From Porphyra umbilicalis (Eukaryota > Rhodophyta > Bangiophyceae > Bangiales > Bangiaceae), in NCBI GenBank assembly GCA_002049455.2, contig KV918963.1:62001-126000 (forward strand): a stretch of 64,000 nucleotides of DNA, given 5' to 3'. Below are positions 20,827-61,473 of this stretch, in pieces; positions within the stretch are counted from its first letter, which is position 1, and every line of letters begins with the position of its first letter. A program made the translations under genes and the position numbers. A model generated the notes under the pieces. That model did no database searches. It was not told the DNA's origin and was given only the letters and a program-made list of their open reading frames with translations.

Positions 20827-20843
20827 ACCGAAATTGTATCTCA

Positions 20844-23585: not shown

Positions 23586-23611
23586 ATTGAGCCCTCTAGA
23601 ACGAGCACATG

Positions 23612-36790: not shown

Positions 36791-37243
36791 ATACAAGAAC
36801 CGCCGCGGCAACAAGCAAGGAGGAGTGTTGGACTGTGATGCTCGTCGCCGGCTCCACTGGCGGTTCGCGGATGGATGATGGTCGGTGACCCTTATGGTAC
36901 CCCACATGGTACATTTGCAAGACGTGGTCAAGTTGCACACATTCGTGTTGGGTGATCTTGGGGCGATACTTTTGGCATGTTTTGGATTTGATCTTCGCTT
37001 TGCTCTTGTGGCTTTTGATTTGGTGAGTGATTCGATTTGGTGCGAGGGCGTGGGCGTCGGTGTGGGCGCGAGAGGGGGGAGCACTTGGGCCGCTGGGGAC
37101 TATTTGAGAGGTGCTCTCAGTTGGGAGAGGCGGGCGAACCTTAGGACAACCAACAAAGCACGTTCGCACACACACACACAAGCTCAAGCCACTCAACCAC
37201 TTCACCGTGGTCCCCCAACCCCTATCCCCACTGCGTTTCAACA

Positions 37244-37304
37244 CCTCTGTCTCGCGCTTCGCAAGGGCACCCGGACCCACAGCAAGGGGTAACGTGCGGC
37301 TCAT
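37244..37304 (-). pseudogene. Displaced 5' coding end of gene X
   Basis: ATG at 37,304 (minus) opens 20 codons (MSRTLPLAVGPGALAKRETE) that run straight into the Copia-1 3' LTR at 37,243. On its own this would be dismissed. However, its last bases are the pentamer CCTCT (read on plus), which is also the flank of the solo LTR at 61,473, and its reading phase matches the frame that starts at 61,479 exactly once one pentamer is removed. It is therefore proposed as the start of gene X, moved 24 kb by inversion. The region 37,305-37,480 (minus, upstream) would hold the promoter; no clear TATA box is seen. Confidence 0.6.
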
Positions 37305-38190
37305 TCCAAATTAGGAGGGCACCCCGAAGCACCACAAGCCCTGGGGAGATCATATCCAGCCGTCGTCGTCCCGGCGACGACAGCGGGCCTGCGACGGGCC
37401 ACAGAAGGCAGACGGTGCCAGGCCCTCGAACCACGATCACAATGCGCTGGATAGCTCGCAGTCACATCTCACTGCATCTTGCATTGTCTGAACCAATCAA
37501 AAGTGCCGCAGAAGAGTACAAATGTGACCGTTAAAGCCAGAAGTGGGGGCAGCGGGCACCAGCCGCCCGGGTTATACCTTGAGGGACCGCTGCGTCAGCC
37601 GCCGCGCCCCCCCGGCCCCCAATTCCCCCCCCCCCACCCCCTCCCCTCGCCCACAACCCCCCGTCCCCCACTCCCCCCCCCTTCTTCCGTGCGCGCCGCC
37701 GCGGCCTTGCCACCGGAGCCGCGACCTGCGCCAGCACTGAGACGACTGCCTTCCACCGCTCACTTCCAATCTGCCGTTGGCTGGGTCCCCCCAAGGCGCC
37801 CGAGTGTCAGTTGCTCAGCCGTCGACGACAGTAATAAATTCGCGACGAGATCGCCGTGTTTACGGAGTTGTCAATGTGTGCACCACATCCATTTATATTA
37901 GATAGTTGTGAGACACACATGTTTTAATCGCGATCAATTGTGACATCGGGAAACGTCTTCTACTTGACACTGTGGAGTCCACGCCATCATCCATTCATAT
38001 GGCACGCACACGCATTGCTATTGCTATGAGCCCAATTTTGGCGGATGCCAAGCGCTACGCAAGCAACAGAGGGACTTTACATTTCAACAATAACTCTTCT
38101 GATTTTTGTGTAACTCCACTGAATGCGTTAAATGTTGAGTGTGGTCGACTTGCTGTCAAATTTGAGAGAAAGGGGTCGGATGGCCATGGC
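37305..38190. other. Intergenic, with C-rich tract
   Basis: 37,600-37,690 is a C-rich low-complexity run. From 37,830 to 38,160 the DNA is AT-richer than its surroundings. No gene or repeat family is recognised. Confidence 0.4.
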
Positions 38191-39325
38191 TGACGGCGTC
38201 GGCGCCGTCGTCAGCATCCACTCTGTCGGCAGCGTCGCGATCGCTGCCGCGCCGCCGCCGCCGCACACCAAGTCGGCTGCGCGGCGGCGGTGCGGCGGCG
38301 CGGCAGCGGCGGCAAAGAGGTCGCGGCCAGGCGCACGCGGCAAGGCGGCGACGCGGTGGCGCGGTGTGGCAGTTGGTGCGTGAGGGATGTTTGCGCGCTG
38401 GTAGGCGGAGAGAAACGGATTTCCGAGCGGCGGCGGCTGCAAGGCGAAAGCTGTAGAAGCCTGCCCTGCCGCCACATCCGACGTGCGGCGGCCGCCGCGG
38501 CGGTGGCGGCGGCATGATTGCTGCCGCGCCGCCGCCGCCCAACAACAGGTCGGCGGCGCGGCGGTGGTGCGACGACGCGGCGGTGGTGGCAGGGCAGAGG
38601 CGGCACGGCGGCTGCGCGGCCGCTCGGGGGCGCTGTTTGTGCGCGGGGGCTGCTGCTGCACTCGTAGGCGGGGAGGGGAGGGTTTTCGGGCGGCGGCGGC
38701 GGCTAGGCAGGTTCTGCTAAAGCCCGCCTCGCAGCCGTATTTGACATGCGGCGGCCTTTGCTGCCGCAGCGGCGGCGCGATTTTTGCCGCGCCGCTGCCA
38801 CCGCTCACCAGGGCGGCGGCGCGGCGGCGCAGCGGCGGCGTGGCGGCGGCGGCGCGGCGGGGGCGGCAGTGTGGCGGCAACAAGAAGGCGGCGGCAAGTT
38901 GGCGGCGCGGCGGCGCTAAGGGGCCATTGGTGCGCAGGAGCTGTACCTGCGGTTTTCGGCGGGGGGGGGGGGGGGTTCAGGCGGCGGCGGCGGCGGGGTG
39001 CGCGCTAAAAAAGCCCGCCCCGTCGCCGTACCCTATATGCCGCGGCCGTCGCCGCGATGGCGGCGGCGAGATTGCTGCCGCGCCGCCGCCGCCACACACC
39101 AGGTCAGCGGCGCGGCGGCGGTGCGGCAGCACGGCCGTGGCGTAAAGCCGCCATCATCGGGGCGGCGGCGCGGCAGCGCGGGGGGCTTGTTTGTGCGCGT
39201 GGGGTGTTTGTCCGGTCGTCGGTCGCTGGATGGGGGCTTTCGGGTGGCGGCGGAGGCGGCGGCGCTGGTGTTGAAAAAGCCCGCCCCGCCGCCGCACCCG
39301 TCCAAGAAGCCTGCACATCTTACAG
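38190..39325 (+). repeat. GC-rich tandem array, unit about 280 bp, four copies
   Basis: The landmark GATYGCTGCCGCGCCGCCGC recurs at 38,239, 38,516, 38,779 (variant) and 39,070, spacing 277, 263 and 291 bp. Each unit then has a CAGGTCGGCGGCGCGGCGG segment, a TTTGTGCGCG segment, GGATTTTCGGGCGG-like and AAGCCCGCC segments. Unit lengths are not multiples of three and frames shift between units, so it is not coding. The units are diverged and so not a recent expansion. Confidence 0.75.
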
Positions 39326-39482
39326 CTGAGCCCGTTCGTGACACCCTCACGGGGAATGACATGGACCACGCCAAGGATTGCATCTGAGCCAAGGATTGCA
39401 TCTGAGCCAAATGCGCGCCAAGCAGGACAGCTGTGGTAATGACGCGCTAGCGGCCGGAGTGCTCATGAAAATATTCTGAATA

Positions 39483-40332
39483 TTGCTATCCCCCAAAACA
39501 GGGCGGTCGCAGAGAGAAGGGAGGCAGAGCCGACGACACAGCATAGAAATGCAGTTGCATTGGCTGTTCGACAAGCCACGATCGTACTATTGGCTGAGAG
39601 TTGCCGCCAGTATTGCTGATCCCCAAATTTTGTCCTGGGGGACAGAGACAGTGACTGACTGTGAATAACAGCATTCTATTGGTCGAAAACGACAGTAAAA
39701 AGGCATCAAAGCCAATAGAAAGCCCGCATTCGATACCAGGACCTTGCATCCAGCAGAACGCACTGTTTGTTGCCTCTTGATCCGATTTTCTTGGCACGGA
39801 GCAAGCTGCCCATGCGAGATCTTGAGATTTTCTACTGTCTCCTTGCCAGAAGTGCAGAAAAAAAGAGGAGCTGATGTCAATTTCCAGACTGGATGGGCAC
39901 ATGTAAGCCATCAGGCGCACCAAGTCAGTCCCAGGGGCGTATCTGATTGGCGGAGAGAGTCGGTCCGCAAGTCAGTCTCTGTCCACCAGGACAAAATTCG
40001 GGGATCAGCAATAATCTTGCAAGCCAATCAACGTGTCTTGCAGGGGTCACGCAGAGCCATTGCGACCGACTATGAGATTTCCTGAGATTTTTGGGCCGCT
40101 TGCTTGGGCCTGCTGAGGGCATGGAGAGGGTTCTGGGCCAGACCTGTGATTTGTCATGAGATCAACAATTTTCTTCAGATTTCTTGAGATCATGATGTGC
40201 GTTTCCAGCGCGCAGAGCTGCATGAGGACACTGGGTAAGGAACTCACATGATTCCTAGCCATTCCATTGGTGCACGTACGCTGTTGAATAATTGCAACCA
40301 CTCTACAACCGCCATTTTTTCGAGGTCAGCAA
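39483..40332 (-). mobile_element. MITE family M2, copy 4, containing nested MITE B
   Basis: TA at 39,481-39,482 and 40,333-40,334. The right TIR is typical (CCATTTTTTCGAGGTCAGCAA) and the left TIR is degenerate (TTGCTATCCCCCAAAACAGG). Without the nested 399-bp element and its duplicated TA it is about 449 bp long, like copies 1 and 3. Orientation is as copy 3. Confidence 0.85.
39613..40011. mobile_element. MITE B, nested in M2 copy 4
   Basis: 399 bp, same family as MITE A but inverted relative to it. TIR TTGCTGATCCCCAAATTTTG and its inverted partner TTGCTGATCCCCGAATTTTG. Flanked by TA on both sides. The empty site is preserved in M2 copy 3 (24,188-24,189), which proves both the boundaries and the TA duplication. 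Confidence 0.95.
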
Positions 40333-40818
40333 TACTACGGCCGATCCTCACTTTGAACCAATCAGACGAGCCTGATACCGGCTTGTATGAGCATCTTGAC
40401 CAGAAATGATCATGAAATCTCGAACCGTACAATTGGTCGACACGATGACGAAGCGCTTGGCATCGGCCAAAATCGAGCAAACAGCAATATAATCGTCCTG
40501 AGAAGTTGGACTTTGGGCTGAGGCAAATATTACGCGATAACTTCGATATCACAAAACAGTACCGTTGTGTGCATTTGCTATGAGGCCCTGCGTCAAAGTT
40601 ACTTATTTAAGCAGTGACCGGTGGGGAGCAAGTGAAGCGCGTGTGCGTGTGTGGCAATCGTCGTGACCTGGCCGGCAGTCCCGACCTCAGTCACCTCCAT
40701 CGGCAACGCATTCGCGACCCCGTATCCGAGACGCGTCCTCGTCTCCACTGGCGCGTGCTGACGACAACTACCGCGAGGCTGATGTCGCGTTTACACTGCC
40801 AAGCTTCTTCCACACACT

Positions 40819-43800
40819 ATGAAGCGGAGGCGGTGCACTGTCGAGGGATGTGATGACCGACGTCTGTTCACTCCCATGCACTTTGGCCGTCACGTGCGCA
40901 TTAGGCACCGGCTCGCAAATGCCGCGAATGGCGCGGACCATGCTGTCACACCATCACTGCGTGATGTGTTTTCCAACACCTGCACAATGTCTGGAGCGCG
41001 CATTGCAGCTGCACATCAGATGTGCTTGTCGGTCGAGAGGGCGACCGACGCGACGACAACGCCGTGCAAGGACGCGCTCCCCACGCCAGCATCGCTCAAG
41101 ACCGCAGTGCGGAACGAAAAAAAAGCGCATGCTACGGAAGCTGGGATGGATGCAAGCCGTCGTCAAGACAAAGGTTGGTACTCACCATATCCTCCTCCGC
41201 AAGGGTCTTCAAGCTGTGCAAGACTGTCTTTCGGGGGCCTCGACCGTCAGGTGCGAGCGGGGATCAGATGAGTGTACCTGTGCTGCGGGCGTGTGTTACA
41301 CGCCAAATGCATCCCACGTTTGGTCAGATGCAGACTCCCAAAATGGGGCAGATGCAGCAACATCAAGATTGAAAGGCTCAGACGTCCATTCCCGGACCGC
41401 GACGCCAACAACCGCGTGCGCAATGTGCACGCCATCGGTCTCGGAAGGAGGCGACGTTCCAGACCCACCCGTTCTGCAAGACGCAGACGTACTGCGGGAC
41501 ATCTTTGATGGTCGTGCATATTGGGCCCAGCGCGTGGATGTCAACCACGTGTTTGGCTTGCGCGCACTGATGCTGGCAGTGGCACTCTACTCAGATGGGA
41601 CGGTGGTGACCTCCTCCGGTGGTACTTTCTCTCACATTCCCGCTTCTTTTCATTGCGCCTGCTAGTTGTGGCCAGTGGTAGCATCATCATACCATCTTCG
41701 ATTGATTTCGATACCATCTGTACCATGCATCTCGCTACATTCCAATAGCTAACGGGCCCGTGCCACTTATGTTTTGGCCTTTCTGTCTCTGCTCATTGTT
41801 TCCCTGGCAGTTGTTTCGGCGTACCCACTGCGAATGAGAGTGATGAACATCGTGTCAAAGGCGCCAGAATGGGTCGTCGTGGCATACATGCCTCAGGTAC
41901 GGTCTCGGTACGAGGCAATGTCTCAATCCAAGGCTGCAGAGGCTCGAGCAGAGATCCTCCAACGCACCACCGCGCTGGTCTTCCGAGATGTCATGCTTGC
42001 CAGTCACTTTGGCACGGAGATGATTTATGATCATCACCACCAGTCCGAGACTTATTCTGTACGTGTCGGACCAGCCCGAAGAGCGCGACATTGTGTGTCT
42101 CAAGCGGCATGGTAGCGCCTACGACTGCACGCCATGTATGGCACGCTCTACATCGTGTGGAGTTCGGCCTTCCAGAAGTAACTCTCCCAAGAAGCGGAAC
42201 GTGCTCAAGACGGTCAAACTGCAGCTCAAGGTGGCGCGAATGCGGGGTATACGGGGTAACGGTGTCGTCATCAATGCCATTGAGACCGCCAACAGCATCC
42301 ACTGCGTTATGCCAGCACTCGCCGGCTGGGCAGGTCTGGGTTCCGGTCCGCTGCTGCTATACCAGATCTTTGGGTTTGACCGGCTGCATGTACGTTGCAC
42401 GTTTGTTTCTTCTTTTGACTATTTTCTTCTACTTCTTGCATGCGATTGCGCAAGACGGCATCTTGACTGACAAGATATCCATGCCATGCACACTCCATGC
42501 AACTCACACCCTCGTGCTCCTTATTTTGCCGCCCACAGGTGTTGGACCTCGGCATCTGCAGGACGCTGACAACAGCTGTGCATGCCTTTGCTCATGAGCT
42601 CGCCGGAACAAAGAAGCTCGCGCACGGCACAGCGTGAGAGATGCTGCGGATCGCCAACAAGCGGTTTTTGTTCGCGTGCCGAACGCATTGCGTCCCATCC
42701 ATCTTTCCCGGGTATCTTTTTGCTCGTCTTGACAGATGCACTGTTTCAACGGTGAGCAATGTGGTCAAAATGACATCGCGATGCCGACAGATGGTGGTGC
42801 GCAATGTGATCATTTCTGACGTCGCTGGGCATAGCCCTCGCTGCTTCGTTTGCCTGACTCCATGCATGTTCCACAGGTACTTTATCAAATATGGAGAGAA
42901 ACAAGCTACCTTGAAAGACAAAAAGCACCGTGAGGCGGTGCACTTCTTGGCTTTCGCCGCGGCCGGCGTATTCGGGCGGACAGGCGCCGGAGGGCGGGAT
43001 CACCGCGTCCTCACGTGGGTTCTCTGCGAGCTCGCCGCGATCTTGAAGAGCGCCTTCGACGTGCGTCCGAAGACTTGGGCGCACGCCAAGTCGGTCTGCC
43101 GTCGGATGAGTCGCTGGAGTGAGAACGACTTTCAGACACTCTTTGGGCCCTCGCACACAACTAAGCTGCATCGCGCCGTGTCTCATTTGTTGGATGAGTT
43201 CATCCTTCGAGGCAACCTTCAAGACGGCAACACAGGCGTCAACGAGGCGCTGCACAAGTTTGTCAAGCAGGCATTTGCTCTCACGAACAAGAGTCGTGAC
43301 AAGGCAGCACTGCAAATGGTGTTGACAGAGCAGATTGATAGCCTTGTACGTCGGTCGCGGTAGGTATCAAAAACACTTGCCAAAACAGCTGAAACGGTGC
43401 GCCGCGTGCGTGCTCGTGAAGCGGTCAGCTCTGTCTCGGAATTGGCAGCCACGTCAGGCTTGGTCGCCTTGAACGAGGCCTTGCATTGCTCTACATCTGA
43501 CCACATCACGACTCAATCCGGGGCATTGCTTCCTGGTGCGGGAGACCATCGAGCGCGCGGCGAGCGCACTATGCTCTGGGCAACAAGGGACCTGGGCGGA
43601 CGCGCATGGTATGACTGGGTGCGCTACCATACGGACGACGGGACTGTTCGTGTCGGGCAGGCACGGGCAGTTGTTGCGGCGCACAACGGCACCCTCATGC
43701 GCACTGTTGTTCTGCATCGTGCTGAGTACGCTAGCACCGTACTCGACTGTCACTTCACGCCGTATGGGTGCAAGATGCTGCAGTGGTGCAGTCAGATTGG

Positions 43801-44154
43801 CGAAGGAAAGGTACACCCCGACCTTCAGGCCATTGATTCGCACCAGGTCATCGAGGTACTGTGCGTAGAGCACGACTGAGAGGAGTGGGTGGATCGTGTC
43901 AGGGTGTGTCGACTCCCCCAGAGCTTTGCTTCTGATGCGAGCGACTGGCGCGACTATCGCTTCTTCATCAACAACTTCGTGTGAGGAGAGGGCGAGGGTC
44001 GAGAGTACGTGATGATGTGTGCATAAACCTCTTTGAGAATCTGGATGATTTTGCTGACAATCTGCTACATTTGCTGACATTGGATGATATCTCATCCGTC
44101 ACACCTCTTCCACGAGTGGAAACTCGTTGGGTCCTCGCCACCCCAAAGACCTGA
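40819..44154 (+). pseudogene. Multi-exon DNA-transposon protein (Plavaka/KDZ-like), broken
   Basis: Starts at ATG 40,819 with a C2H2 finger (CTVEGC...HFGRHVRIRH). Then LRDIFDGRAYWAQ and ALYSDGTVV; an intron of about 200 bp (donor near 41,625, acceptor CCCTGGCAG at 41,810); PEWVVVAYMPQV; LILYVSDQPEERDI with a C-x2-C; a second intron (GTACGT 42,390 to CCACAG 42,538); VLDLGICRTLTTAVHAF; NKRFLFACRTHCVPSIF; HLLDEFILRGNLQDGNTG followed by a conserved-looking NEALHKFVKQAFALTNK; and a C-terminal VCINLFENLDDFADN. This order resembles fungal and algal Plavaka (CACTA-like) or KDZ transposases; the exact family is unsure. Breaks: in-frame TGA 42,635, TAG 43,361 and TGA 43,877, plus frame changes near 42,020 and 43,990. 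Confidence 0.6.
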
Positions 44155-45236
44155 ATCACTGCCAAGCGTGTGATAGAGATGCTCTCAAACGGCCTCAAAG
44201 GCCCTTTTCCTGAGGCTAGCCCACAGGCTAAGTCATTCGGGAGTGTCTTGGCCGTGAGAGCTGTTCAACCCAGAATCGTGGTCGCATCAGAGACGCCCGT
44301 CCTCGCTGTGGGTCTCTCTGGTGGCGTCGAGGAGGCACACCTGCGCGATTGGCGATTGTGAGACCACAGGTCCAACGAATCATCTGCAATCAGTCCTGCA
44401 CGGACTCGGTTTACTTCCTGTAGCCCCCCAGCACGTGGTCAAAAAACTTTCCTCGTGTTTGTTTACAGGCAAGGTGACGCTGACTTGGGCCACTGGACGC
44501 ACTGGGGTGGATTGAGGACCCACCTTAACGCTTGAGATGCATTTGAAATGATGTCCTAACCGGATCAGAGAACTCCAGCCGACACAGTTGTTGCGGATGG
44601 CCGGATGGTTGCACGCATTTGCCTGCCTTTGGTATGATTATGAACTGCCCTAAGGTCAGGTTAGCGGTCAAGGCCTCACGGTCTGAGTCTTAGAATCGAC
44701 CGGTCGCGGCCGAGGACATTGCAGCAGAGAAATGACATATATGGACTAGAAAATGACGACAAGATGCAAATAAGTATGTCTTTGAGCACGTCAAGAGCCA
44801 TCCCGATGTCATGTACAGCGCTCGAGATGCGGTGCGATGCACAAAATGACATCCAGATGCAGGTGGGCACGGCTGCCGACGATGGGCGTGCGGACGGGGG
44901 CTCGGGAAGACGAGTGCGGGAAGCGATGGACTTGCGCACAAACAAACAAACAAAAAATAGGCGATCCATCCGAGGCGTCGCGGCCCCGGTGCCGCCGCTG
45001 CGGCCGTCGCAGTGGCCCGACGGGCCCGCCAAGGCGTCTTGCCCCGGGCGCGGTGGCAGCCGCTCCGCACCTGTCACCCACCGTGGACCCATCGTGCCCT
45101 TGGGGGCGGGCAGCGGCGACTGTTCAGCGGTGGGAAGCGCTCCCCACCGCCCCCCCCCCCGGCGCGCCCGCCGCCACGCCCGCCACGAGCAGCTGGCGGT
45201 CCCTGCGGCGCGCCTACCCCCTTCCTTCCCCCCGCC
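44155..45236. other. Intergenic, no feature recognised to 44.9 kb
   Basis: 44,155-44,900 has no gene, repeat or TIR that I can support. From 44,980 the sequence becomes GC-rich and may contain the upstream part of the condensin-like gene, but no homology can be assigned before about 45,240. Confidence 0.4.
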
Positions 45237-47500
45237 ATTTGGGGGCGACGACCTTGAAGCCGTCGGGGAGGTTCCCCAGCCCCCCTCCAGCGTTGGCCTC
45301 ACTGGCGGAGAAGCCGACGCGGCCCTCTCCGCCGTCGTTGGGTTGCTCCTCGCAACCGTCGACCTCGTCGGCGCCCACACGCTGCTGCTCGCTCGCCCCG
45401 TTTTGGGGGAAGGGTGCCGCCGGCGACCACCGCGTCGGCCGCGGCGGCGGCAGCCAAAGTCAATGCCGCGTCGGCGGCGGCCGCGGTGGCGCTGCTGCCG
45501 GCGCTGGCCGTCGCCGCTACGGGCGGGTGCGCGTTGGAAGAAGCAGGGGCCAGCGTTGAATGTGCGCTGCCGACGGCTGGTGTCGCCGCCGCGGCCGCGG
45601 CGGCCGGGGACGACTACCAGTCGGCGGTGCGGGCTGCGGCGGTGGTGAGCTTCGGGGACCTTGCCGCCCGCTTCTCCGCCGCCGTTGTCACACCGGCGGA
45701 GCCGCTGCTCGCCCTCGCGCTGTCCGAACCGTCGTCGGTGGTGCGGTCGGCGAGCGTTTTGGCCGTCGGGCGGCTCTTGCTCGGGGCTACGCTCAAGGCG
45801 CGGCCGGTGATGGGCGGCCTCGCCATCCTCACTTCTGACACAGACGGGTGCGTACCCGCGCTCGGGCGATACCTCTTGGCGCGCCTCGAGACCAAGGTGC
45901 CGGGAGCCGTGTACAAGCTGCTGCCGGCAATGCTTTTCGCGTGGGCAGGGCGGGATGAGGAGCGCCGCTTTCGCAGGGGTCCGGGGTTCTTCTTTGGGCT
46001 TGGTCGGGCGTGAGCACCAAGCGGACGCGGTGGTGGAGAAGCTGCACGCGCGTCTGGCGGCCCTGCGGGAAAAGCCGCAGACAAAAACCGGCATGCTCCT
46101 ATCGAGAAAAAACGGCATCAGTGAGACAATGACCGGTGTCTGAGACCTCCTCACGGCAAAAAAGCGGCATACCTGGGCTCATGAGGACCGCAGAAACGAG
46201 GGACTGCGGCAGAGCTCTGTCACTCTCATGCGTTCATTTCATTATCGACCAATAGGGATGGAGAGCGTCGTTGCATCCAAACCACAGGCTGGTGCACGCC
46301 CCTGGACAGGATCTCAAATTGTACCGATCCGTGATTATTCCAATTTATCATTCCCCACATACGGCCAGCAACGTAACGTTGACCTTGAGCATGACAAATT
46401 GGGTCCATACGCGGTCCCGGGTCGGCAACGCGCCGACCAAAGCGAGGGTAAAGATGCAAAGCAGATAAGAAGCAAAGACACGTGCCGATGATCCTGGTCC
46501 AACATGGAAGTGGGGGAGAAAGACACCGAGGGGAGCAGAGGGGCAGCGAGAAGCAAGGACGTTGGGGGACAGGGGGGAAGAAAGAAAGGAGAGAGAGACC
46601 GCGCCCTTCAGTTACTCAACTCTCCACCCGCCGTCGCCCGCCGTCCGTGCCGCCACGCCCGTCCGCCCGCCGTCCCGTCCCCCGCCGTTGGCGCGGTGCG
46701 CCGTCCGCGCGCTTGGCCGCGTGCGCGCGGCTACAGCAGTGGGGAGGAGCGCGGGGGAAAAATGAGCTCAGGAGGGGGGGGGAGGGTTGTGGGGGGGGCG
46801 TGATGGACGGATGGTGTGTTTCGATGGGGCGTCGTGGTTCTCAAGATGAGGCTGAGCGACCGTCGCAGGGGCTGCTGGCCTCGGGGCCACCCTCATGTCC
46901 TCGGGGGCACCCCCTCCTGACGGCCCTTGTTGAGCCCCTCTCCTTGTCCAATGAAATGGGAGGTGGGGAGCAGCAGGCGACGGTGAGAGGCGGTGAGCGG
47001 TCGCCGACAGTCGATCCCCAGCGGGAGCCACAAAACCGGAATAGGGAGTCGAGTATGCCGGTTTCTGTTAGGAGATGCCGGTTTTCCGCCCGGTTTTTAC
47101 CGTAGGGCGGCGGTTGGGTTGCCGGATGAGACGGGGGGGGGGGGGGGCGGGGCGGGGGGGGTCCGGCGTGACGGCCGACGAGGGGGGGGGGGGGGGGATA
47201 CGGAGGGCGACCCGCCGTCGCTGCCCGTCGATGAGGGCGACGGCAACGGCGACGGCGACGGTAACGGCGACGGCGGCTGTGACGGTGACGGTGTCGACGC
47301 GCCGTCGCGGCCTCCCGCCGACGGCGACACGGACGAGGAGTCGCCCACATTCGACCCCCGCCGGGGCAGCCGCCACCCTCACCGCCCGCGATGTGGCCTT
47401 TTGCCTCGCGCAACAACCTTCCCCCGACCGCTCCGTTTGGCTGGCAGCTGGGTTGCCCGTCCTAGCCCACCACCTTGGCGCCGAAGACGTTTTGAGATAA
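45237..47500 (+). pseudogene. Condensin subunit 1 (CAP-D2)-like gene, fragmented
   Basis: Condensin's HEAT-repeat subunit binds and compacts mitotic chromosomes. The match is to the C-terminal Cnd1 region: DDYQSAVRAAAVVSFGDLAARF, then EPSSVVRSASVLAVGRLLLG, SDTDGCVPALGRYLLARLE and VYKLLPAML (45,610-45,938) correspond in order to the family pattern VVRSNIVIALGDLA / VRKNALMVLTHLIL / D-D-R-I-A-LAK-FF-EL / IYNLLPD. After a frameshift, ADAVVEKLHARLAAL (46,023-46,070) fits the following LVEKLC-R-F motif. After a 1-kb insertion, TARDVAFCLAQQPSPDRS (47,374-47,430) fits R-D-LAYCLSQLP-ER. A weaker segment (GDDLEAVGEV) lies at 45,243. At least two frame changes and the insertion make it non-functional unless spliced unusually. 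Confidence 0.6.
46078..47096. mobile_element. TIR element inserted in the condensin-like gene
   Basis: The two ends are inverted: AAAAACCGGCATGCTCCT on the left and, reverse complemented, AAAAACCGGGCGGAAAACCG then GCATCTCCT on the right, with further CCGGCAT repeats just inside both ends. Flanking coding homology on either side (VEKL motif left, RDVAFCL motif right) defines it as an insertion. No transposase frame is recognisable; the interior has a G-rich tract at 46,770-46,800. The right border is blurred by the poly-G region that follows. Confidence 0.6.
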
Positions 47501-50280: not shown

Positions 50281-50530
50281 CGCGTATTTAAATCACATGT
50301 AAGACTGTAACTGGAGAGATGTATCCTTTCATTTCATTTCGTTTCAATTTTAGACTTCTTCCAGATCCATCATTCAAGAGAATATATTCAATCTGTCTAT
50401 CCCAACCATGTTCAAAATCCTACTAATTGAATATCCGACTATAATATTGATCCTGACTCTGTCCGTCCCAGCAAGATCTGATTTTGGATAAATGACATCG
50501 CCAAATACTCAATCCAGAGTGCATGTGACG
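50281..50530. other. AT-rich island
   Basis: About 250 bp at roughly 64 percent AT in an otherwise GC-rich window, with TTTCATTTCATTTCGTTTCA and many TATA/ATAT steps. It has no ORF. It ends about 100 bp before the Copia-3 3' LTR target site. It could be a matrix-attachment-like or origin-like stretch, or a fragment from a different compositional source. Confidence 0.5.
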
Positions 50531-51097
50531 GGATGTGGATTATATTCTAATGCAACCAAAAGTGCCTGATTCCAAAGCCCCTGATGGCAACCTGCGAGAC
50601 GGGGAGGCACAGGCGCCGGCGTCCTTGGGCGGTGTTGGCGAAACCGTCCCGTAGGCCACGCGTGCAGTTTGCCCCGCGTGGCACCATCCTGGGTGTCGAG
50701 TAGGGTTGGGTCGTCGGTCAACTTTCTCTTCGCCCCCGGGGCCAGTCCCCTGGCGTGACCCTATAAATACTCTCCCAGGCGTTTCCCATCTCATGAGCAG
50801 CTGTATGCCGGCACCCCGCACCGCACTGCACCGCACCGCGCAGTCCCTCCCTCGCCTGGTCGTGTCGAGCACCGCCCCGTACGCTGGCGGCACCCGACAC
50901 TCTCGGTCGTCACACCGCTTGTCCGACACGAGTGCATCTCCTCGGGGGGGAGACCGCCATCCCGGTTGTGCTTCCGCGGTGCTGCTGGTTGTCAGTTGGC
51001 GTGGCACCTGCAGGGACACCCGTCCCTGTGGGCGCCGCCCCCGGGGGGGGGGGCGTAATAATCAGGCCACCCACCCCCGGCTCACTCGGCTCCATTA

Positions 51098-54000
51098 CTC
51101 CCCCACGTGGGACGTCTTGGGGTGGGCCGCGCATCCCGAGGCCCCGAACCCTTCGAGCGAACGCAATTGTCCCCAGGGGCTTGGTCAAGATGTCGGCCGT
51201 CTGCTCCGCCGTCCTGACGTACTGCACCACGAGCGTCCCGTCAGCGACGCGCTCCCACACGAGATGGTGGCACACGTCAATGTGCTTCGTCTGTGCACTT
51301 ATCACGGGGTTGTGCATAATCGCCAGGGCGCTCTGGCTGTCGCACCAAAGCGCTACGCTGCCAGCCTCCTCCGTCACAAAAGCCCGGAGCCGGCGGAGCC
51401 ACACGCTCTCCTTGGCCGCTCCCGCCGCCGCGATGTGTTCTGCTTCCGTAGTGGACGCCGCCACCGAGGGCTGCAAATTGCTGCCCCAGGTCACCGCTGC
51501 CCCACCGTAGAGGAAGATTATGGCGGACGTCGACCGTCGGTTGTCGCGGTCCGCCGCAAAGTCGGCATCGCAGAACCCGGTGAGCTCGCCCGCACCGGAG
51601 AACCAAAGCCCCAGCTCAGCGCTCCCTTTCAGGTGGCGGAGGACCACCTTTCCGGCGGTCAGGTGCTCCTCCGTCGGGGCGGCCACAAACTGTGTGAGCC
51701 GCCCCACAGCAAAGGCGATATCCGGCCGGGTGCTTGTGCTCTGGTACAACAGGGACCCGACCAGCTCTTGGTACCTTCTGGTCAGGTCCGCATTCAAGTA
51801 CCGCCCAACCTTGCTGAGGTGGGCGCCTGCCCTCATGAGCAGTTGCACCGGGTTGGCCTCCTCGAGTCCAAAGCGCGTCAAGAGCGAGGAGCTGTACTGG
51901 CGCTGATGCACCCGCGTCGTCCGCGCCCCAGCATCGCGCTCGATATGTAGCCCGAGGAAGTAGGCCGGCTCCCCCATCTTCTTCCTCTTGAATGCGGTGG
52001 TATCCGCCGCCTGTCCCGCCTGCGCCGCGGCCACCGTGGGCGCCGCTACGAGGAGGTCATCCACATACACCAGAATGAAGCACACATCCCCCCCTGGCCC
52101 AACGCGATTGAAGAGGCATTCTTCGGCCTCACACGCCTCGAAGCCGGCGCGCTCCAAGGTCTCGCGCAACTTCCGGTACCACGCCCGTGCCGCCTGCTTG
52201 AGCCCGTAGAGGGCCTTGCGCGAGCGGCACACCATTCCGGGTGCCCCGGGTTCGTAGCCGCGCGGCTCCCGAATGTAGAGCTCCTACTCAACCTCACCGT
52301 TTAGGAAAGCTGTTGCCACGTCAAGCTGCAGCAGCGCCAGGGAATGAATGCTGCAGTGTGCCAGGAGCATACGGAGGGTGGTTTAGCGGGCCACAGGCGC
52401 CCAGGTCGGCGTGTAGTCAATCAGCGGGATCTGAGTGACCCCGCGCACGACGAGCCGACCCTTGCTCTTCACGATCTCCCCGTTGGCGCCACGCTTCCGC
52501 TCACAGAGCAGCTTCGTCTGCGTCACCTTCTTTCCGGATGGGAGCGGCATCATCTTCCACGTCCCATTGTCCCACAAGGCCTGCACCTCGACGCAGTTGG
52601 CCGCATCCAAGGCGAGCCAGTCCGCCTCCTTGCGCGCCTCGTATATGCACATGTTGTCAGGCCCGCCACGGCCGCCGGCGGTGAGCGCCCAGGCGCGCAG
52701 ACCCTTGCCCCCGTTCTCGGCCCCCTGCGTACATTTCGGCCGATTGTGCAGGCGGAGCGAGCGGCGGGAAGCTCCGGTCCCATCACCGTCGTGGGTGCAT
52801 GCATCCGTTGTGCAAGCATGTGCTCCTGGACTGTTTGATTGAAGCGATCGGCCACTCCGGTGTGCTGGTGTGCGTAGGGGGCGGACGTCTCGTGCCGGAT
52901 ACCCTTGTCACTCATCCACTTGTCGAATGTCGGGCCGCAATACTCCATGCCGTCATCGTTCCGGATGGTCAGGACGCGTTCCCCCGTCACATTCTCCCAG
53001 AGGTTGAGCACCCGCATAAGAGCGTTCGTGGCTTGCCCATTCTCGGCGATGGGCGTGATGACCTTGTACCTGCTGTAGTCGTCAACCGCCATCATCATGT
53101 ACCGCCGCCTCTTTGGGGTGGGGACAGACCTGGGACCGATCACGTCAGAGTGCACGAGCACTAGAACACTCTCAGGCTCCCGGTCGGATGCCATGTATGG
53201 CGCGCGCACCAACTTCCCCATGATGCAGGGTTCTCAGGGAGCCCCCTTCAGGGTCGCCAGAGCCGAGCGCGTCAGGTCCATCCCGTTGACCGCCTCCCAC
53301 GTCCGCATCAGCCCGTCTACGGACAGATGCGCGTACCGCCGGTGCCAGAGCGCGGCCTTCGGGTCTGAACCGCCCGTGCGCACCTCCGTAGCAGGCCCAC
53401 TCGTCCCAGCGACCTGGTCAGGCAGCACAGAGGGGGCGCCCCCCGCCTCAAGCACACGTGGCGTAGCCTCCTCCACAGAACGCGACGAAGAGGCCTCCTC
53501 CGCACCCATGGGCGGGGCGACCGGGTCGGGCGGGGCGGCCGATGCCGCCAGTGCCTTGTCGCCATCGCCAACGGGCCCCTGCGTGTGGAGGACATGGATG
53601 CCGCCGGCTGTCGTGCCGCGCAAGATGGTGGAACCCGCGTGAAGAATGCGCAACCCAGCATCGGTGAACTCTGTCGTGTAGCCCGCACGCCAGGTGGTGC
53701 GGACAGAGAACAGGAACATGATCATTTCTGGAACGAGGAGCACGTCCCGCAGGATTATCTTTGTTCCGTCCACGCGGAGCACCGCTGTCCCGCGGGTTGT
53801 TGCACGCGTGGTAGTGCCGTCAGCGAGGGTGATGGTCACGGGACGCCCTAGATGCACGTCGCGCAGGCGGGCGGCCGTACCACACATGTGGTGGGAAGCC
53901 CCGCTATCCACAGCCCACCCGTCGCCGGCCCCCCATGCACCTGCATCGTTTCACACCCTGTGGGCCAGTAGCGCACCGCCACGGCGGATGTTCATGTCGG

Positions 54001-54949
54001 CCACCTGGTAGGCCAACATGGCGTACCCGGCCTCCTCCTCGTCCTCGCCCACGTCTGCCTCGAGGGCAAGTCGGGCCAGACCGGCCGTACCCGCGTCGTC
54101 GTCCTCCGCAGGGGGCACCACGGCATTCTGCTTGGGTGCGCCAGACCGCGCACGGCAGTAACGCTGGATGTGACCGAGCTGGTCACACTTGTGGCGGCGG
54201 TGGTTTCGGTAACGATCCCGGAGAGGGCGCCGGTCTTCGTCTGCCGCGGCTGCCAGGGCCGTGGCCGCTTCCTTCTCCGCCTTGTCCTGCTCCTGGATAC
54301 GCTTGGCGCGCACGTCCGCGGCGCGCAACATAGCGAGCGCCTTGCGCACGGTAATGTCGTCGCGCTCCTCCATGGACGAGAGCGTGTGCTCGTACTTGGA
54401 GGGGATCCCCCCAAGGAGAGCACCTAGCAGCCAATTTTCGTCGACTGTGATGTCGAGCTCTTGCAGCAGCGCAACAAGTTCCCAGGCCCGGTTGAAATTG
54501 CGAACGAGCGTCTCGTTGGGTCTCATTTTCAGCATGTTCAGCTGCCGTCGGAGGGCATTGGCACGGAAGGTCCGCTTGGGATGAAACTCCTCCCGGAGCG
54601 CCGCCCATAGACCACGCCCCGTCCGGTGCCGCCGTAGTTTGGCGCTGTGGTGCGCCCGCACGTTCAGCATAATTATGACCCGCGCGCGCTCGCCACGCTG
54701 CCGCTGCTCGTTCACCGTCTCATCCCAGGAAAGCGCCGCTGTTGCGGGGTCTGCAGGGACCGTTCGCATCTTGTCCGCCGCCAAGCCGCTGCCACTGCCG
54801 GCCGCAGCACTGCCGTCGGTGTCGTCGTGCAGCGGCTCCGTCTTGGAGGCCCCGAGGGTCGCCCCCGATCGAAGCTGCATCCCCATCGCCGGATGTCCAG
54901 CCGACGACGTGATTTGTGGCTCCGCTTCTGGGTGATTTGTGGGGACCAC
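51098..54949 (-). pseudogene. Copia-3 gag-pol, multiply interrupted
   Basis: Gag from ATG 54,949 with the region FHPKRTFRANALRRQLNMLKM and a damaged zinc knuckle (HKCDQLGHIQRYC, first Cys lost). TGA 53,951, then protease DSGASHHMCG in the same frame, AALWHRRYAHLSVDGL, TGA 53,234 where the integrase zinc motif should have Cys before EPCIMGK, and integrase HSDVIGP, RNDDGMEY and GVADRFNQT (last acid D for E). A frame change near 52,800 leads to RT: RLVVRGVTQ, TAA 52,383, LDVATAFLNGEVE, TAG 52,284, ALYGLKQAARAWYRKL, YVDDLLVAAP, and RNase H GFCDADFAADRDNRRST and ADILTKPL. Four stops, one frameshift and a shortened integrase tail: dead copy, older than Copia-1. Confidence 0.85.
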
Positions 54950-55410
54950 GAGGCCTCACAAGTCGTGAAACCGGAGAAGGTACTCAATCTCGTGGCTCCA
55001 GGCCATGTAGTTGTCATTGTCCAACTTCGATGTGACCCGAGGTAATTACTGCCCGCCCGACGCCATGATGTCGGTTGGCAGAGTCAGCTCCGCTGCAGCG
55101 CGGCGGAGCCCTTGCACGTCTGACGCACCGCGTACCTTGGCCCCACCCCCGCGCCTCGTGAGTCGCGTCAGTGGCGTGCCGGCACCGTGTTGCCGGGGTC
55201 GCCCGCCTTCGCGGTCGGCCCGTCTGCCCACACCGGTGCCTCCACCAGTGCTGTCGGCGCAGCTGGTAGCTCCTCTACCAGGGCCGGGATGTCATCACAC
55301 GGCGCCTCTGCGCCGATGGTTGTACAGCCGGGATCCCCGGACTCAGCTAGCCGCGCCGCCAGCCACTCCTACGAACTCAGCAACAGTCCGTACGGTGTGC
55401 GTAATGGGTC

Positions 55411-55426
55411 GCCTGGGCACATAACC
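55411..55426 (-). other. Copia-3 primer binding site, half-tRNA type
   Basis: Read on minus directly after the 5' LTR: GGTTATGTGCCCAGGC. It differs by one base in the first 14 from the Copia-1 site and matches the anticodon-arm complement of initiator Met-tRNA. Confidence 0.55.
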
Positions 55427-55895
55427 TGTCGGCGAAGCCAATCCGTAGACCACGCGTGCAGTTTGCCCCGCGTGGCGCCCTCCTGGGTGTCGAGTAGGGT
55501 TGGGTCGTTGTTCAACTTTCTCTTCGCCCCCGGCGCCAGTCCCCTGGTGTGACCCTATAAATACTCTCCCAGGCGTTCCCCATCTCATGAGCAGCTGCAT
55601 GCCGGCACCCCGCACCGCACTGCACCGCACCGCGCAGTCCCTCCCTCGCCTGGTCGTGTCGAGCACCGCCCCGTACGCTGGCGGCACCCGACACTCTCGG
55701 TCGTCACACCGCTTGTCCGACACGAGTGCATCTCCTCGGGGGGGAGACCGCCATCCCGGTTGTGCTTCCGCGGTGCTGCTGGTTGTCAGTTGGCGTGGCA
55801 CCTGCAGGGACACCCGTCCCTGTGGGCGCCGCCCCCGGGGGGGGGGCGTAATAATCAGGCCCCCCACCCCCGGCTCACTCAGCTTTAACAGGCGG

Positions 55896-57114
55896 CCGCC
55901 CTGCGGGGCGCGCCGCCTCGCGCTGGGGTGGGGGGGGGCGCACCGGCGGTCGCCTGGGCGGCGGCCCGCCGCACCGCCGCCCGCCGCCGCCGGCGCGTCT
56001 GTCTGCCACTGGCGGCACGCGGCGGGCCGCCCGCGGCGAAGCCGGGGTGGGGTGAAGGCGGCGGCGGCGGCCTCCCGGGGCCCCCCCACCCGGGCGCCTC
56101 CGCTGCCGCCGGCCGCCGCGCGGCGGCGGCGGAGGCGCCGACGGCGCCGCCACGGCACGCGTTCGGGGGCCACCGCGGGCGCACTGGCCCGCTTCGGTGG
56201 CGGTCGCGGCCGACCGTCGAGGGGCCGGCGGGTGCGGGCGGGCGGGCGGGCAAGAGCGACGCCGCGGCACGGGGCGAACGGCGCGCAGCGGGCACGGTGT
56301 TCAGAGTGTGGTGTTGTGGTAGCGGTGTGTATCTTTTTTTTCTGTCTCTCTCCTCCGTTGCCTCACCGCCCACTGCTTATGTACCTACCGGCAGTGTCGT
56401 GGTCGTCCATCTGGCCCTCGCCCGCGCGTGTGCCCGCCTGTTGCCCACGCTGGCCCCAAACGCCCACACCCGACGGCACGCTCCGCGCGCCCCGGCTTGC
56501 ACGCGGTTCCGCCACGTGCCCCTCAGCGCCCGTTGCGCTGGCGCCCCCTCGTGCGCTCGTGCTCCCACGCAGCGCCACAGTGGCGGCAGCCGCCACGCGG
56601 CTCCGCCCCCACGACCCCCGGTGTTGCGGCTCCCACGCAATCCACCGCTAACGGTCGTGTCGGCCGGTCCAATCTGGACCCGGCCACAGGCAATTTCCAA
56701 ACCGTGGGGAAATTGCTCCGCCCGGTTGAGCTACCGTAATCTCACTGCCAAAACCCGGTCCGGGCGGGGCCGGGGGGTGTCGGGCGGGCGGCGAACCGCC
56801 GGCGGCCGAGCGCCAAGACAAGAAAAATAAATTCACAAGCACCAAAAAAAAAAGCAAACATACCCGCACCCCCTCGGCACGCGGCGCGTGCGCCGAGCGC
56901 AAAAAGGCTGCGCAGGGGCCCGCCTCCACAGCGGCCAAGCCGCGCCAGCACATCGCGGTCGTGCCCGCCCCCGCCCCACCGGGTCGCAGATCAGGGTCTG
57001 GGCCAGGGGCCTCCCCGCCCGACCGCACGCGTCGACGTCAAAACGCACCAGCACCTCGCTGCGGCCGTGCAGGGCGAGCACGAGGGTGACCATGCACACT
57101 TCCTTGTGGCAGTA
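55896..57114. other. GC-rich unassigned stretch
   Basis: ORFs overlap on both strands with low-complexity products. A minus frame at 57,150-56,990 (EVCMVTLVLALHGRSEVLVR) reads like protein but matches nothing I recognise. 56,690-56,717 holds a small inverted repeat (CAATTTCC/GGAAATTG). AATAAA occurs at 56,825. No gene is called. Confidence 0.3.
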
Positions 57115-57863
57115 TCGTCGGCCCGGCAGGAAATCACATCGAGCATGCATCGGGCTGCATCGACCATCGAAACCGGCTTTCGATAGGCGTTTTTGGGCCC
57201 ATCCGAGTCTTCATCGAAGTGCATCGCCCGATGGACACACAGCCGTTGACAGGAACCCAACAACACGTCCGTTACTGCCTCACGGTCTGCGCCGAGAGTC
57301 TTGACCGCCGTTACAGCTAGCATTAAGCACGGGCACTCTCGCGAATGATTGGTCCAGCTGCTATCCCCGTTGGATAAGGGACAGATCTTGCTCCGACAGG
57401 TATGCTGCTTACTGTGGAGGGGCACTGTAAATGTAATGCAACGGGAATGTGAGCAGCAGGGTGCGGCATCCACGACGTGCTTATCTGCTCAAGCACCGAG
57501 CGAGGCCGCAAGAGCGAACGGGCCTGACTTATGTGTCTGAGAATCCCGCGCGAGGAGATGGCCGCCAGCAAGGCGCGGTCTTATACTGTAGCGGGCTGTC
57601 CCTCCTCTGCTTGCGCGTCTTTGGCCATGCCGGGCGGGCATGCTAGGGGGGGGCCCCACCCCTGCGGCGCCGTGTCCCACACCACCCAGACCGTCGTCAC
57701 CCGAGCGGCCACCGCCGCCCCCGTCGGTGGCGGTGGCGGTCGCGGGCGGGAGAAGCATCCCCATCCCCCCCGGGCGGATGCGGCGGCGAGGTGCCTCGCC
57801 CCCCCCACCCCGTTACACGCGGTCGCCGACCGCCTCGTCGTTGGCGTTAACGCGCGCCCTCAG
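57115..57863 (+). mobile_element. TIR element P, right copy, distal half (inverted segment)
   Basis: 749 bp, the same length as and about 95 percent similar by eye to 27,653-28,401. It starts TCGTCGGCCCGGCAGGAAAT and ends CTCAG (57,859-57,863), where the Copia-2 LTR follows. Joined in inverted orientation to 29,874-30,732 it makes the second complete 1603-bp P element. Confidence 0.75.
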
Positions 57864-58241
57864 TGAAAGAAATGCGTTTTCTTGATGCCCCACTCGGCGG
57901 GGCTAGTCCCCAGCCGAGTGGCATCCTCATACAGGGGGCGAGGGCGAGCCGCGGCTTTGGCGTGCGCCCTGCGGCGCACCCCCGGGTCGGCGCCCACCCC
58001 GCGCGTCCGCGCGCACCCGTCGCGCCCCTCCTCTCCAAAGCAGGCATAGCCCCAAAGCAGACACATTGCATGCAGCCCCAGTATGCGTCCGCGCGCTGGC
58101 ACCCTCACGTGGCGTGGCGCTGCTGGTGTTGCGTGGCAGGTCCAGCCTGCCACCGGCAGCGTACCGCATGCGGCGCGGGTCGCCCCGCCCCGAGCGGTCG
58201 CGCATCCGCGGGGATGACGGGTGGTTTGGCGCCACCCGTCA
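57864..58241 (-). repeat. Copia-2 3' LTR, lacking its first 39 bp
   Basis: 378 bp, homologous over its full length to 30,772-31,149. The missing 39 bp are those between 30,733 and 30,771. The upstream junction joins directly to reverse transcriptase codons (LARRFTD), and both parents carry ACCGAC at the break, so a deletion between short homologies removed the end of RT, RNase H, the purine tract and the LTR start. Confidence 0.85.
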
Positions 58242-61057
58242 GTCGGTGAATCGCCGCGCGAGCATCGATGCCTCGCACTCGAGAAAAGGATAGGTCTGCC
58301 CGGTGGCCCACAGCAGGGCTCCGGTGGCGCGGCGGTAGAGCGTGAGCTCAGCCGCGGTCAGGGGCGACGAGACCTCCGCGCGGCGCGCTGCCGAGACGGA
58401 AAAGGCGACGATGGACTCGACGTATTCGTCCAGGTTGACGCGGAGGGAGAGCGCGCCTGATGACATGTCCACGACCGCGGCGACCGCCAGTCCGGTGAAC
58501 GTGAAGGCGCCGACCTTAATGGAGCCCGCCGCAAACCGCTCCCGCAGGGTCGCCTCGAAGCGACGCACCTCCGAGGCCGTCCCACCGAAGAGGAAGTCAT
58601 CGACGTGGACCGCCACCGCCAACACCAGCACCCCGTCCGCGTGCCGGGTGTAGAGGCCGTGGTCAACTGTCCAGCGGACCAGCCCTGACGCTCGCATGAG
58701 GACGAGCACCCTCTCGTACCAGCGGCCGGGGGCGTCGGTCAGGCCGTAGGCGCATTTGCACAGGCGCCAAACGACCCCCGCCGGCGCGCCAGACTGCGGC
58801 GGCGGCTGCACGTACACGGCCGCCGGTCGGTCCAGGGGCATGCCCTGTAAGAACGCAGTGCGCACATCGATTGTCCGCAGCAGGAACCTCCGCGACGCCA
58901 GCGCCGAGAAGAGCACTCGCAGGGTGGCGCGCGCCGCCGTCGGGGAGGTGCTGTCGACCGTGTCCTGAACACGGTCAACAAGGCGTGGCGGATGCCTTTG
59001 TGCCGGCCTGGCGAGACCCAGCGGCACCCGGCCCGGGCGCCAGGTCACTGTCCAACATCGCCAGCCCGACCGCGTATTCCGCCAGCCCGCCCTGCTCAGC
59101 GAGGGGCCGGTTGAGCAAGGCCGCCTCGGCGGACCCGTTGGCATTGGCCGGGAGCGCCAAGAAGCGGCGGGCGCCGCCCTGCCTGGTGCGCCCCGCCCAA
59201 GCCGACGGCACGGGGGGAGCGGCCGGCGGGGGCGACCCCACACGCCGTTGCGTAGCGTGGGCACCCGCCAACATGGTCGCCGTGGCATCGGAAAAGGGCG
59301 AGGGGGCGTCCGACTCCGAGTCATACGACAACCCTGACGACGAGGCCGACTCCGAGGACGAGGCTGAGGCCCCCTCGGCGGGCGCCGGGGCAGCCGCCGG
59401 CTCTTTGAAAGCCATGGCCGCCAAGACCACCGGCCGCACCTGGCTGCCGTGCCGGGTCACCCAGCGGTTGCCGTGCTGGAGCCGGACGGCGTCCTTGGCG
59501 ACCGCCACGTCCGCGACGTGGGCGAGCCCTTCCCAGGCACCCGGCGATGAGTGGACCCCCTCGGTCCAGTAATATACCACGTCGCCCACCGCCCACAGCC
59601 TCGGGGGGACATTAGTGGCGTTCCGCGCGAGAGCCATTTGCATCGACACATCTGCTTCCGATTGGGTGTGCGCCGCCCGAGCGGCATGTAGCAGGGAGAG
59701 GTGCGTGCGCAGAGCATTGTCTCCACGCACACGCCGGTCCCCGAGGGCCGGCAGCGATTCCGTCAGGGCAGCAGGCAGCCGAGGCGCCGAACCGCACATG
59801 CGCTGGAACGGCGACACGCCGTTGTGGATGCTCATGCTGTTCTTAGCCAGGCAGGCCAGGTCCAGCAGCTCCTGCAGGGGTGCCGCCGGGTGGTGTTGCC
59901 GCAGCCGGCGCACCATTCCTTTGAGCGTCTGGATGTGCCGCTCGACAATGCCGTTGGAGTCGTGCGCCTTGCCCGCCGTGGACAGCGCCACGACGTTGAA
60001 CCGCTCTGTCATGGAGCGGAACAGAGCGCTGTCAAACTCCGCGCCCGAGTCCGCCAGGATCGTGCGCGGGGCGCCGTGGTGCACCAGCCACCCGGCCAGC
60101 ATGGCCCGGGTCACCGTGGCCGTCTCCTTGTTGGGGATGGCCACGGCCTTGCTGAACCGCGAGCCCACGTCGACCATGTGCAGGAATGTCGCGTGCGGGG
60201 GAATGTACGCCAGATCGACCGCCACCGTGTCATTGAAAGGCATCGACCGCGGGATGGAGACGAGCGGGCGGGGCGGCCGCGGAGCGTCGCGGCGGCAGGC
60301 ATCACACGAGACCACTGCCGTGACGACGGCGCGGAACACTTCCGGGTCCGAGACACCCTGGTCCTCCAGCAGGCCGATGAGCCGGGCAGCAGCACAGTGC
60401 CCGTACTGGGTGTGGAGCTTGCGCACCGCCCGGTCCAGGCCGGTCGAGTCCTTCGTCAGGATAGCCACCAACACGAGGTGCACGTCCGCCGACACGGCAA
60501 GGCGGACCTCCTCCGTGTCCACTCTGGTCAGCGCATTCAAGGTCAGGTGCCCCGCGCCGGACAGGGCCAGGGACACCGCCGCGGTGGGCGAGGCGATCAG
60601 CATGCGCCGAGCGTGGACGTCGAGGACGGCCCCCATCGACGCCAGCGAGGCGCTGCTAAGGAGAAGGGGCAGGGAGCCCGCCACTACCCAGGTCGTGACG
60701 TGGCACCGTCGGTCGCCGACGCGGATGGGCAGGGTGAACTGCTCCACGGTGCGCTGCGACGCTCCGCCGCCGAAGGTAAAGACGGCCGACGCATCCACAG
60801 ACCGGATCTCCGCCCGAGATGCAGAGTCCAGGCGTGCCACGTAGGCGGCCACTCAGGCCACGCCCGCAATGGTCGCCGTGGCGCCGATGTCAAAGATGAC
60901 AAGGCCCACCGGGTCCTCCGAAAACGCGTTGACCCCGCCCGCCGTCGCCAGCACCAGGTGGCACTTGTGCTGGTTGGCGTACGTCGCCACGCCCCCGCCC
61001 CCATCAGCGCGGTCAGCAGCGGCAGGCGGCCCCGCAGGGCCACCCCCACCACCCACG
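58242..61057 (-). pseudogene. Copia-2 protease-integrase-RT (separated from gag)
   Basis: On minus, the protease region reads VIFDIGATATIAGVA, then TGA 60,853 where Trp is usual, then continues in frame. Integrase has HTQYGHCAAA and CDAC (HHCC zinc site) and the acids in VAVDLAY, ILADSGAEF and NGIVERHIQ. Then comes a chromodomain-like or linker region (WAVGDVVYYW) and a Ser/Glu-rich stretch, after which the frame changes near 59,000 to RT: VDSTSPTAARATLRVL, TIDVRTAFLQG, CAYGLTDAPGRWY and VAVHVDDFLFGG (HVDD instead of YVDD). The RT N-terminus is shortened and the end, with RNase H, is deleted into the LTR. Confidence 0.85.
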
Positions 61058-61473
61058 TGTTGAAACGCAGTGGGGAAAGGAGTTGGGGGACCACGGTGAA
61101 GTGGTTGAGTGGCTTGAGCTTGTGTATGTGTGTGCGAACGTGCTTTGTTGGTTGTCCTAAGGTTCGCCCGCCTCTCCAAACCGAGAGCACCTCACATATA
61201 GTCCCCAGCGGCCCAAGTGCTTCCCCCTCTCGCGCCCACACCGACGCCCACGCCCTCGCACCAAATCGAATCACTCACCAAATCAAAAGCCACTAGAGCA
61301 CAGCGAAGATCAAATCCAAAACATGCCAAAAGTAACGCCCCAAGATCACCCAACACGAATGTGTGCAACTTGACCACGTCTTGGAAATGTACCATGTGGG
61401 GTACCATAAGGGTCACCGACCATCATCCATCCGCAAACCGCCAGTGGAGCCGGCGACGAGCATCAGTTCAACA
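61058..61473 (-). repeat. Solo LTR of the Copia-1 family
   Basis: 416 bp, minus orientation, starting TGTTGAACTGATGC and ending CAACA. No internal sequence follows. Its flanks do not match each other (CGTGG and CCTCT in element orientation), but each matches the flank of a Copia-1 LTR 24 kb away. At the four sites where the two Copia-1 LTRs differ it agrees twice with each. Confidence 0.9.

Follow-up and report, generated by a model that had tools for sequence, protein, structure and literature searches.

How did two insertions of one retrotransposon family come to carry flanks that fail to match across their own ends, but match each other's? The question arises in a 64,000-nucleotide stretch of the red alga Porphyra umbilicalis (the window; positions 62,001-126,000 of contig KV918963.1, here C203, in an assembly of 83.8 Mb and 665 contigs), and the paralogues used to answer it were sought across this one genome. 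A T-complex chaperonin stretch encoded in it agrees with a Porphyra umbilicalis protein at 100% over 495 residues and with a Pyropia vietnamensis protein at 92%, as expected of this species or one very close to it. The window contains Copia-1, a full-length Ty1/copia-type element bounded by long terminal repeats (LTRs), and a solo LTR of the same family in the opposite orientation. We conclude that the 3' LTR of Copia-1 and the opposite LTR very probably underwent a reciprocal homologous crossover, which inverted the segment between them, 37,244-61,057. A preliminary description of the window, made from its letters, had proposed an inversion of this kind; its LTR coordinates and flanks for Copia-1, the solo LTR and the CTGAG sites described below all proved exact on re-reading.

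Exchanged target duplications at two LTRs

The features that define the proposed inversion are listed here with the evidence for each; the host repeat is the repeat in which the solo LTR sits.

32,280-32,284, plus strand: left target duplication of Copia-1, CGAGG (the empty site on contig C37 reads CGTGG)
32,285-37,243, plus strand: Copia-1, full-length Ty1/copia-type element nested in a second element, Copia-2 (LTR pair; gag, integrase and RVT_2 domains in three pieces; flanks CGAGG left and CCTCT right, exchanged)
32,285-32,702, plus strand: 5' LTR of Copia-1, the reference LTR, away from the breakpoints (LTR alignment)
36,826-37,243, plus strand: 3' LTR of Copia-1, proposed left inversion breakpoint, possibly chimeric towards its 3' end (exchanged flank; parsimony over three LTRs)
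37,244-37,248, minus strand: one target duplication of the solo LTR, AGAGG, now adjoining Copia-1 (flank reading; host-repeat paralogues)
37,244-61,057, no strand: proposed inverted segment, 23,814 bp (both ancestral junctions intact in paralogues)
61,053-61,057, minus strand: right target duplication of Copia-1, CGTGG, now adjoining the solo LTR (flank reading; C37 empty site)
61,058-61,473, minus strand: solo LTR of the Copia-1 family, proposed right inversion breakpoint (flanks in its own sense CCTCT and CGTGG, exchanged)
61,474-61,478, plus strand: other target duplication of the solo LTR, AGAGG (single AGAGG in 4/4 paralogues)

Copia-1 was classed as Ty1/copia from its TG...CA LTR ends, the 5-bp duplications of its family and the domain order Retrotran_gag_2, rve, RVT_2. 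Its two LTRs differ at 4 of 418 positions, and the solo LTR differs from either of them by 14 mismatches and one 2-bp gap (about 96% identity). Comparison of the flanking sequence showed the Copia-1 interior to be absent on both sides of the solo LTR. The last Copia-1 frame has 4,927 homologous proteins, the best listed being up to 90% identical and from unnamed JGI sources; these are uninformative on the junctions.

At present neither insertion has matching duplications: Copia-1 lies between CGAGG and CCTCT, and the solo LTR, read in its own sense, between CCTCT and CGTGG. Exchanging the flanks gives CCTCT/CCTCT (5/5 bases) for the solo LTR and CGAGG/CGTGG (4/5) for Copia-1, a repair that four random 5-mers from the window match or better at a frequency of 6e-5 (200,000 draws, uncorrected for the choice of partner LTR). 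For comparison, 30 LTRs of the family were aligned, 3 inside the window and 27 outside it; the latter come from the best-matching part of 722 candidates, of which 40 were scored, and so provide a baseline for close copies. Eight pairs and three solo LTRs among the 27 are testable for duplications, the other eight showing one end only. Seven of the eight pairs have the usual spacing (about 4,541 bp), and the eighth, on C76, measures 5,348 bp between LTR starts; it was counted as a pair from its flanks, its 5' LTR match ending two bases early. Perfect 5-bp duplications were found in all 11 testable copies, Copia-1 and the solo LTR being the exceptions, which bears out the earlier claim that the duplication of Copia-1 is missing and that a swap of flanks restores the duplications. 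Chance agreement of such short flanks was considered and rejected, because the corresponding empty sites were found in paralogues.

Ancestral junctions in paralogous repeats

The element interrupted by Copia-1 now consists of two parts.

30,728-30,732, plus strand: left target duplication of Copia-2, CTGAG (sequence)
30,733-32,284, plus strand: left part of Copia-2, comprising the LTR 30,733-31,149 and part of what follows it (91% match to positions 2459-4015 of locus L017 on C37)
57,859-57,863, minus strand: right target duplication of Copia-2, CTGAG (sequence)
57,864-61,057, minus strand: right part of Copia-2, with an integrase-like stretch, RVT_2 and the LTR 57,864-58,251, inverted and moved 24 kb (L017 from position 4011 on, with a 5-bp overlap with the left part)

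The first ancestral junction was traced with two 500-bp queries, 31,785-32,284 and 60,558-61,057 (minus strand), searched separately. On C37, in a relative of Copia-2 without Copia-1, the pieces ending at 32,284 and 61,057 adjoin (92% and 88% identity) and share one 5-bp CGTGG. Since both flanking pieces are contiguous in this relative, Copia-1 is nested inside Copia-2, and since the single target on C37 agrees with the right flank, the left flank CGAGG is probably a later change from CGTGG. Two more distant relatives, on C67 and C79, also have both pieces in the same order and on the same strand, their matches lying 84 and 147 bp apart.

Copia-2, at present spread over 27 kb on two strands, becomes when un-inverted an element of 4,746 bp on one strand (1,552 + 3,194 bp, Copia-1 excluded; five of these bp are the duplicated Copia-1 target). 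The half with the integrase-like and reverse transcriptase domains is the one now found 24 kb off on the other strand; RVT_2 was matched with an E-value of 3.3e-17, Pfam rve fell below the cut-off, and no domain was recognised in 31,156-32,283. The LTR pair is 96% identical, with 14 differing sites and one gap in 388 columns. The preliminary description had further stated that Copia-2 regains CTGAG on both sides. CTGAG is indeed present at both places, but these letters are right with or without a flip, and what the flip restores is Copia-2 itself.

Two further observations concern the right part of Copia-2. Its LTR (58,245-58,280) lacks roughly the 30 bp with which the left LTR begins, though the LTRs of an element should start alike, and at 58,966-58,977 about 0.7 kb of the C37 copy is missing, as would be expected of an internal deletion here.

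The second ancestral junction lies in the host repeat, which is likewise in two parts.

37,244-39,222, minus strand: part of the host repeat moved by the proposed inversion, including tandem repeats (continuous match in locus L024)
61,474-63,474, plus strand: remainder of the host repeat, outside the inversion, as far as the fetched loci reach (paralogue matches)

Queries of 500 bp from 37,244 and 293 bp from 61,474 led to four long-matching paralogues, on C292, C463, C410 and C33, which match both pieces at 90-94%. In all four the pieces are adjacent, in opposite directions as the uninverted order requires, and overlap by the 5 bp AGAGG. The remaining hits of these searches are shorter, consist mostly of tandem repeats and are uninformative on the junction.

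Separately, all four long-matching paralogues hold about 1.15 kb extra at 61,764-61,766, where the flanking matches overlap by 3 bp; this is either a deletion in the window copy or an insertion with a 3-bp target in the others. Two of the four (L023 and L025, on C463 and C33) have a Copia-1-family LTR and interior within the tandem-repeat part.

As both ancestral junctions are intact in paralogues, the present order is the derived one and a single flip of 37,244-61,057 suffices. This flip rejoins both Copia-2 and the host repeat, and both restored junctions have exact 5-bp overlaps, with no duplication or deletion at the breakpoints. The exchange of duplications at the exact LTR ends, together with the opposite orientation of the LTRs, points to an LTR-LTR crossover as the cause. 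The inversion by LTR recombination put forward earlier is thus supported by one close and two distant relatives at the Copia-1/Copia-2 site and by 4/4 paralogues at the solo-LTR site. The preliminary description had named relatives that lack Copia-1 and share the present order as evidence to the contrary; the paralogues without Copia-1 show the other order. To judge from the sequences compared, ancestral contiguity can be shown at both ends, in paralogues of the same genome rather than in alleles of this locus; a crossover within the LTRs, the order of events and the correctness of the assembly are inferred.

Proposed order of events

The nested insertions suggest four steps. A copy of a repeat family would have received Copia-2, with the duplication CTGAG, and another repeat the partner LTR, with the duplication AGAGG. 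Copia-1 would then have inserted into Copia-2, duplicating CGTGG, the left copy of which has probably since changed to CGAGG. Finally, recombination between the inverted LTRs would have flipped the segment, split both Copia-2 and the host repeat in two, and exchanged the duplications of both LTR insertions.

Relative ages can be estimated from difference counts. Against the majority letters of the 27 other LTRs the solo LTR shows 12 substitutions, two of them common to the Copia-1 LTRs, and a 2-bp deletion; by such counts Copia-2 and the solo LTR look old and Copia-1 young. The inversion would be younger than Copia-1, because Copia-1 takes part in it. The age figure for the Copia-1 LTRs (4 of 418) would be blurred if the 3' LTR were chimeric.

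In a variant of this scheme, which we consider rather unlikely, the partner was still a full-length element when the inversion occurred, and LTR-LTR recombination removed its interior afterwards. Solo LTRs make up 3 of the 27 others examined and so are no rarity in the family, and the loss could precede or follow the inversion; however, no feature of the sequence calls for a full-length partner, and the variant alters the order of events rather than the inversion.

Position of the proposed crossover and points against the interpretation

The preliminary description had suggested aligning the three LTRs in the window to look for a breakpoint within them. Under parsimony, placing a single crossover between LTR positions 294 and 395 costs 18 changes, compared with 19-20 elsewhere; LTR positions 295-394 correspond to 37,120-37,219 and 61,082-61,181 in the window. 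Within this interval a switch in the 3' part appears likelier, since the solo LTR has private changes as far as position 350. The crossover can be placed only broadly, most differences being peculiar to the solo LTR. A second signal comes from position 268: a 23-mer with C at this site occurs three times in the genome, in exactly these three LTRs, whereas all 27 other aligned LTRs have G (a count that covers G copies among these 27). The common 268C hints at sequence exchange. In a uniform-site simulation, the chance of one matching allele was P 0.065-0.084 and that of two or more 0.002-0.003.

Several observations weigh against the crossover interpretation or narrow its basis. The chimeric-LTR signal is thin, the alignment favouring a switch at 294-395 by a gain of only one to two changes. 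Site 395 is itself variable: of the 211 copies with C or T there in the exact context, 5 have T, and C62 carries a T copy and a C copy on one strand at a distance of 4,539 bp, close to the usual spacing of an LTR pair. Should site 395 be mutable, the value of 0.002-0.003 is too low. The 268 allele lies to the left of the favoured switch and misfits a single simple crossover; to account for it one must invoke a short patch of conversion, a source element in common or a repeat mutation. At the flanks, the Copia-1 duplication agrees at 4/5 bases only, and the baseline of 11 copies was drawn from the best-matching LTRs, older copies lying outside the survey. Finally, C345 matched the right Copia-2 piece in three stretches, and the left piece was not found there, though the locus is long enough.

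Inversion or assembly artefact

All of this was read from one assembly of one strain, in which the inverted LTR pair could have let the assembler flip the segment while the living genome is uninverted. The junctions lie within 418-bp repeats, 211 near-identical 3' ends of the family were counted in the genome, and the order that we take as ancestral is also the order that an artefact would have replaced. We nevertheless regard an artefact as improbable. The window is without any N and resolves the 99%-identical Copia-1 LTRs, which suggests long reads; the two breakpoint LTRs are distinguishable at 14 sites and a 2-bp gap; the reciprocal joins are both on one contig; and with hundreds of family LTRs, a false join would be expected to connect unrelated places more often. 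A real inversion made at the LTRs by end joining or by template switching during replication, instead of homologous crossover, would agree with the weak chimeric-LTR signal but is very improbable, since both junctions have a complete LTR and complete 5-bp flanks with nothing lost or gained, and end joining would rarely rebuild two whole LTRs.

An uninverted haplotype was sought with the inner segment 44,700-46,200, which was matched over its full length only at its own locus; the other 39 of the 40 scored hits (from 92 candidates) extend over roughly its first 200 bases at most. Apart from the locus itself, searches with the breakpoint flanks found no match above 94%, except two 210-bp pieces of host-repeat copies at 96-97%. 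By these inner-segment and breakpoint-flank searches, no second allele is found in the assembly. Ten other frames of the window were scanned and gave no host gene usable for synteny.

An imperfect palindrome interrupted by Copia-2

The sequence around Copia-2 belongs to a repeat family, of which four other fetched copies (L061-L064) are unbroken through the insertion site. In the window it forms an imperfect palindrome (27,652-30,732 together with 57,114-57,863), the opposite arm of which holds an empty site.

28,397-28,401, minus strand: empty Copia-2 site in the opposite palindrome arm, single CTGAG (27,652-28,401 matches 57,114-57,863, and 28,397-29,257 matches 29,872-30,732 inverted, with a 5-bp overlap)

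The inner arms differ at 3 of 861 positions, whereas 33 of 750 differ between the outer arms (Fisher p 1.3e-8), and the divergence changes exactly at the Copia-2 insertion site: the last outer mismatches are at 28,394-28,395 and the next is at 29,138. This pattern suggests gene conversion between the palindrome arms that was stopped by the Copia-2 insertion. A simple conversion reading is opposed by the outer left arm, which is less like the four other family copies than the outer right arm. Tentatively, and with the balance somewhat against it, the inner arms may have been kept homogenised up to the Copia-2 site while the outer arm, carried away first by the insertion and later by the inversion, diverged, and the inverted LTRs may also have exchanged the 268C patch. 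If this is true, an insertion would form a sharp barrier to conversion between inverted repeats, here in a red alga.

Other elements in the window

Two further LTR-like pairs of direct repeats were noted, 50,633-55,884 (96%) and 19,810-24,020 (95%); the frames within the former, on the minus strand, carry domains of copia gag and RVT_2. An open frame at 13,975-14,667 contains a Plant_tran transposase domain (E 1.4e-19), and a frame at 17,101-18,231 (minus strand) has a NAM-associated match below the cut-off.

Comparison with known systems

Among the titles and abstract openings listed by searches of open-licence papers, some aimed at Porphyra and some at red algae in general, we found no retrotransposon-mediated inversion in red algae. 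Related rearrangements are documented elsewhere. In a study of Ty1-Ty1 recombination in Saccharomyces cerevisiae, an inversion on chromosome II is reported that has Ty1 at each of its breakpoints; unlike in the present case, the breaks were induced and whole elements were involved, and in four isolates examined in detail the authors observed no events between inverted repeats of the same arm (PMC9879454). Potential natural inversions of about 4-103 kb in Candida albicans similarly have their breakpoints in long inverted repeats, the relevant passages making no mention of exchanged duplications (PMC6591007). Inversions between human and chimpanzee have likewise been ascribed to retrotransposons, but to the non-LTR elements L1 and Alu, and by comparison of species (PMC2603318).

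The substitute for such a comparison here may be of wider use: in a repeat-rich genome, a rearrangement can be tested against paralogous empty sites where no relative is to be had, which makes a genome-wide screen for exchanged duplications feasible from one assembly.

The likeness extends to inversion 2z3 of Drosophila buzzatii, generated by Galileo, a DNA transposon with 7-bp duplications, for which uninverted chromosomes were sequenced (PMC2775673). Both cases have opposite copies of the same element at the two breakpoints, exchanged duplications, joins at which nothing is lost or gained, and single targets in uninverted sequence. Here, by contrast, the elements are LTRs that make 5-bp duplications, the inverted segment measures 24 kb and the uninverted order comes from paralogues of the same genome; moreover, both Galileo breakpoint copies are chimeric, a feature that is weakly supported here (PMC2775673). 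The mechanism is of a known kind, and the Porphyra inversion is an unusually complete example of it, in which the order of events can be read from nested insertions.

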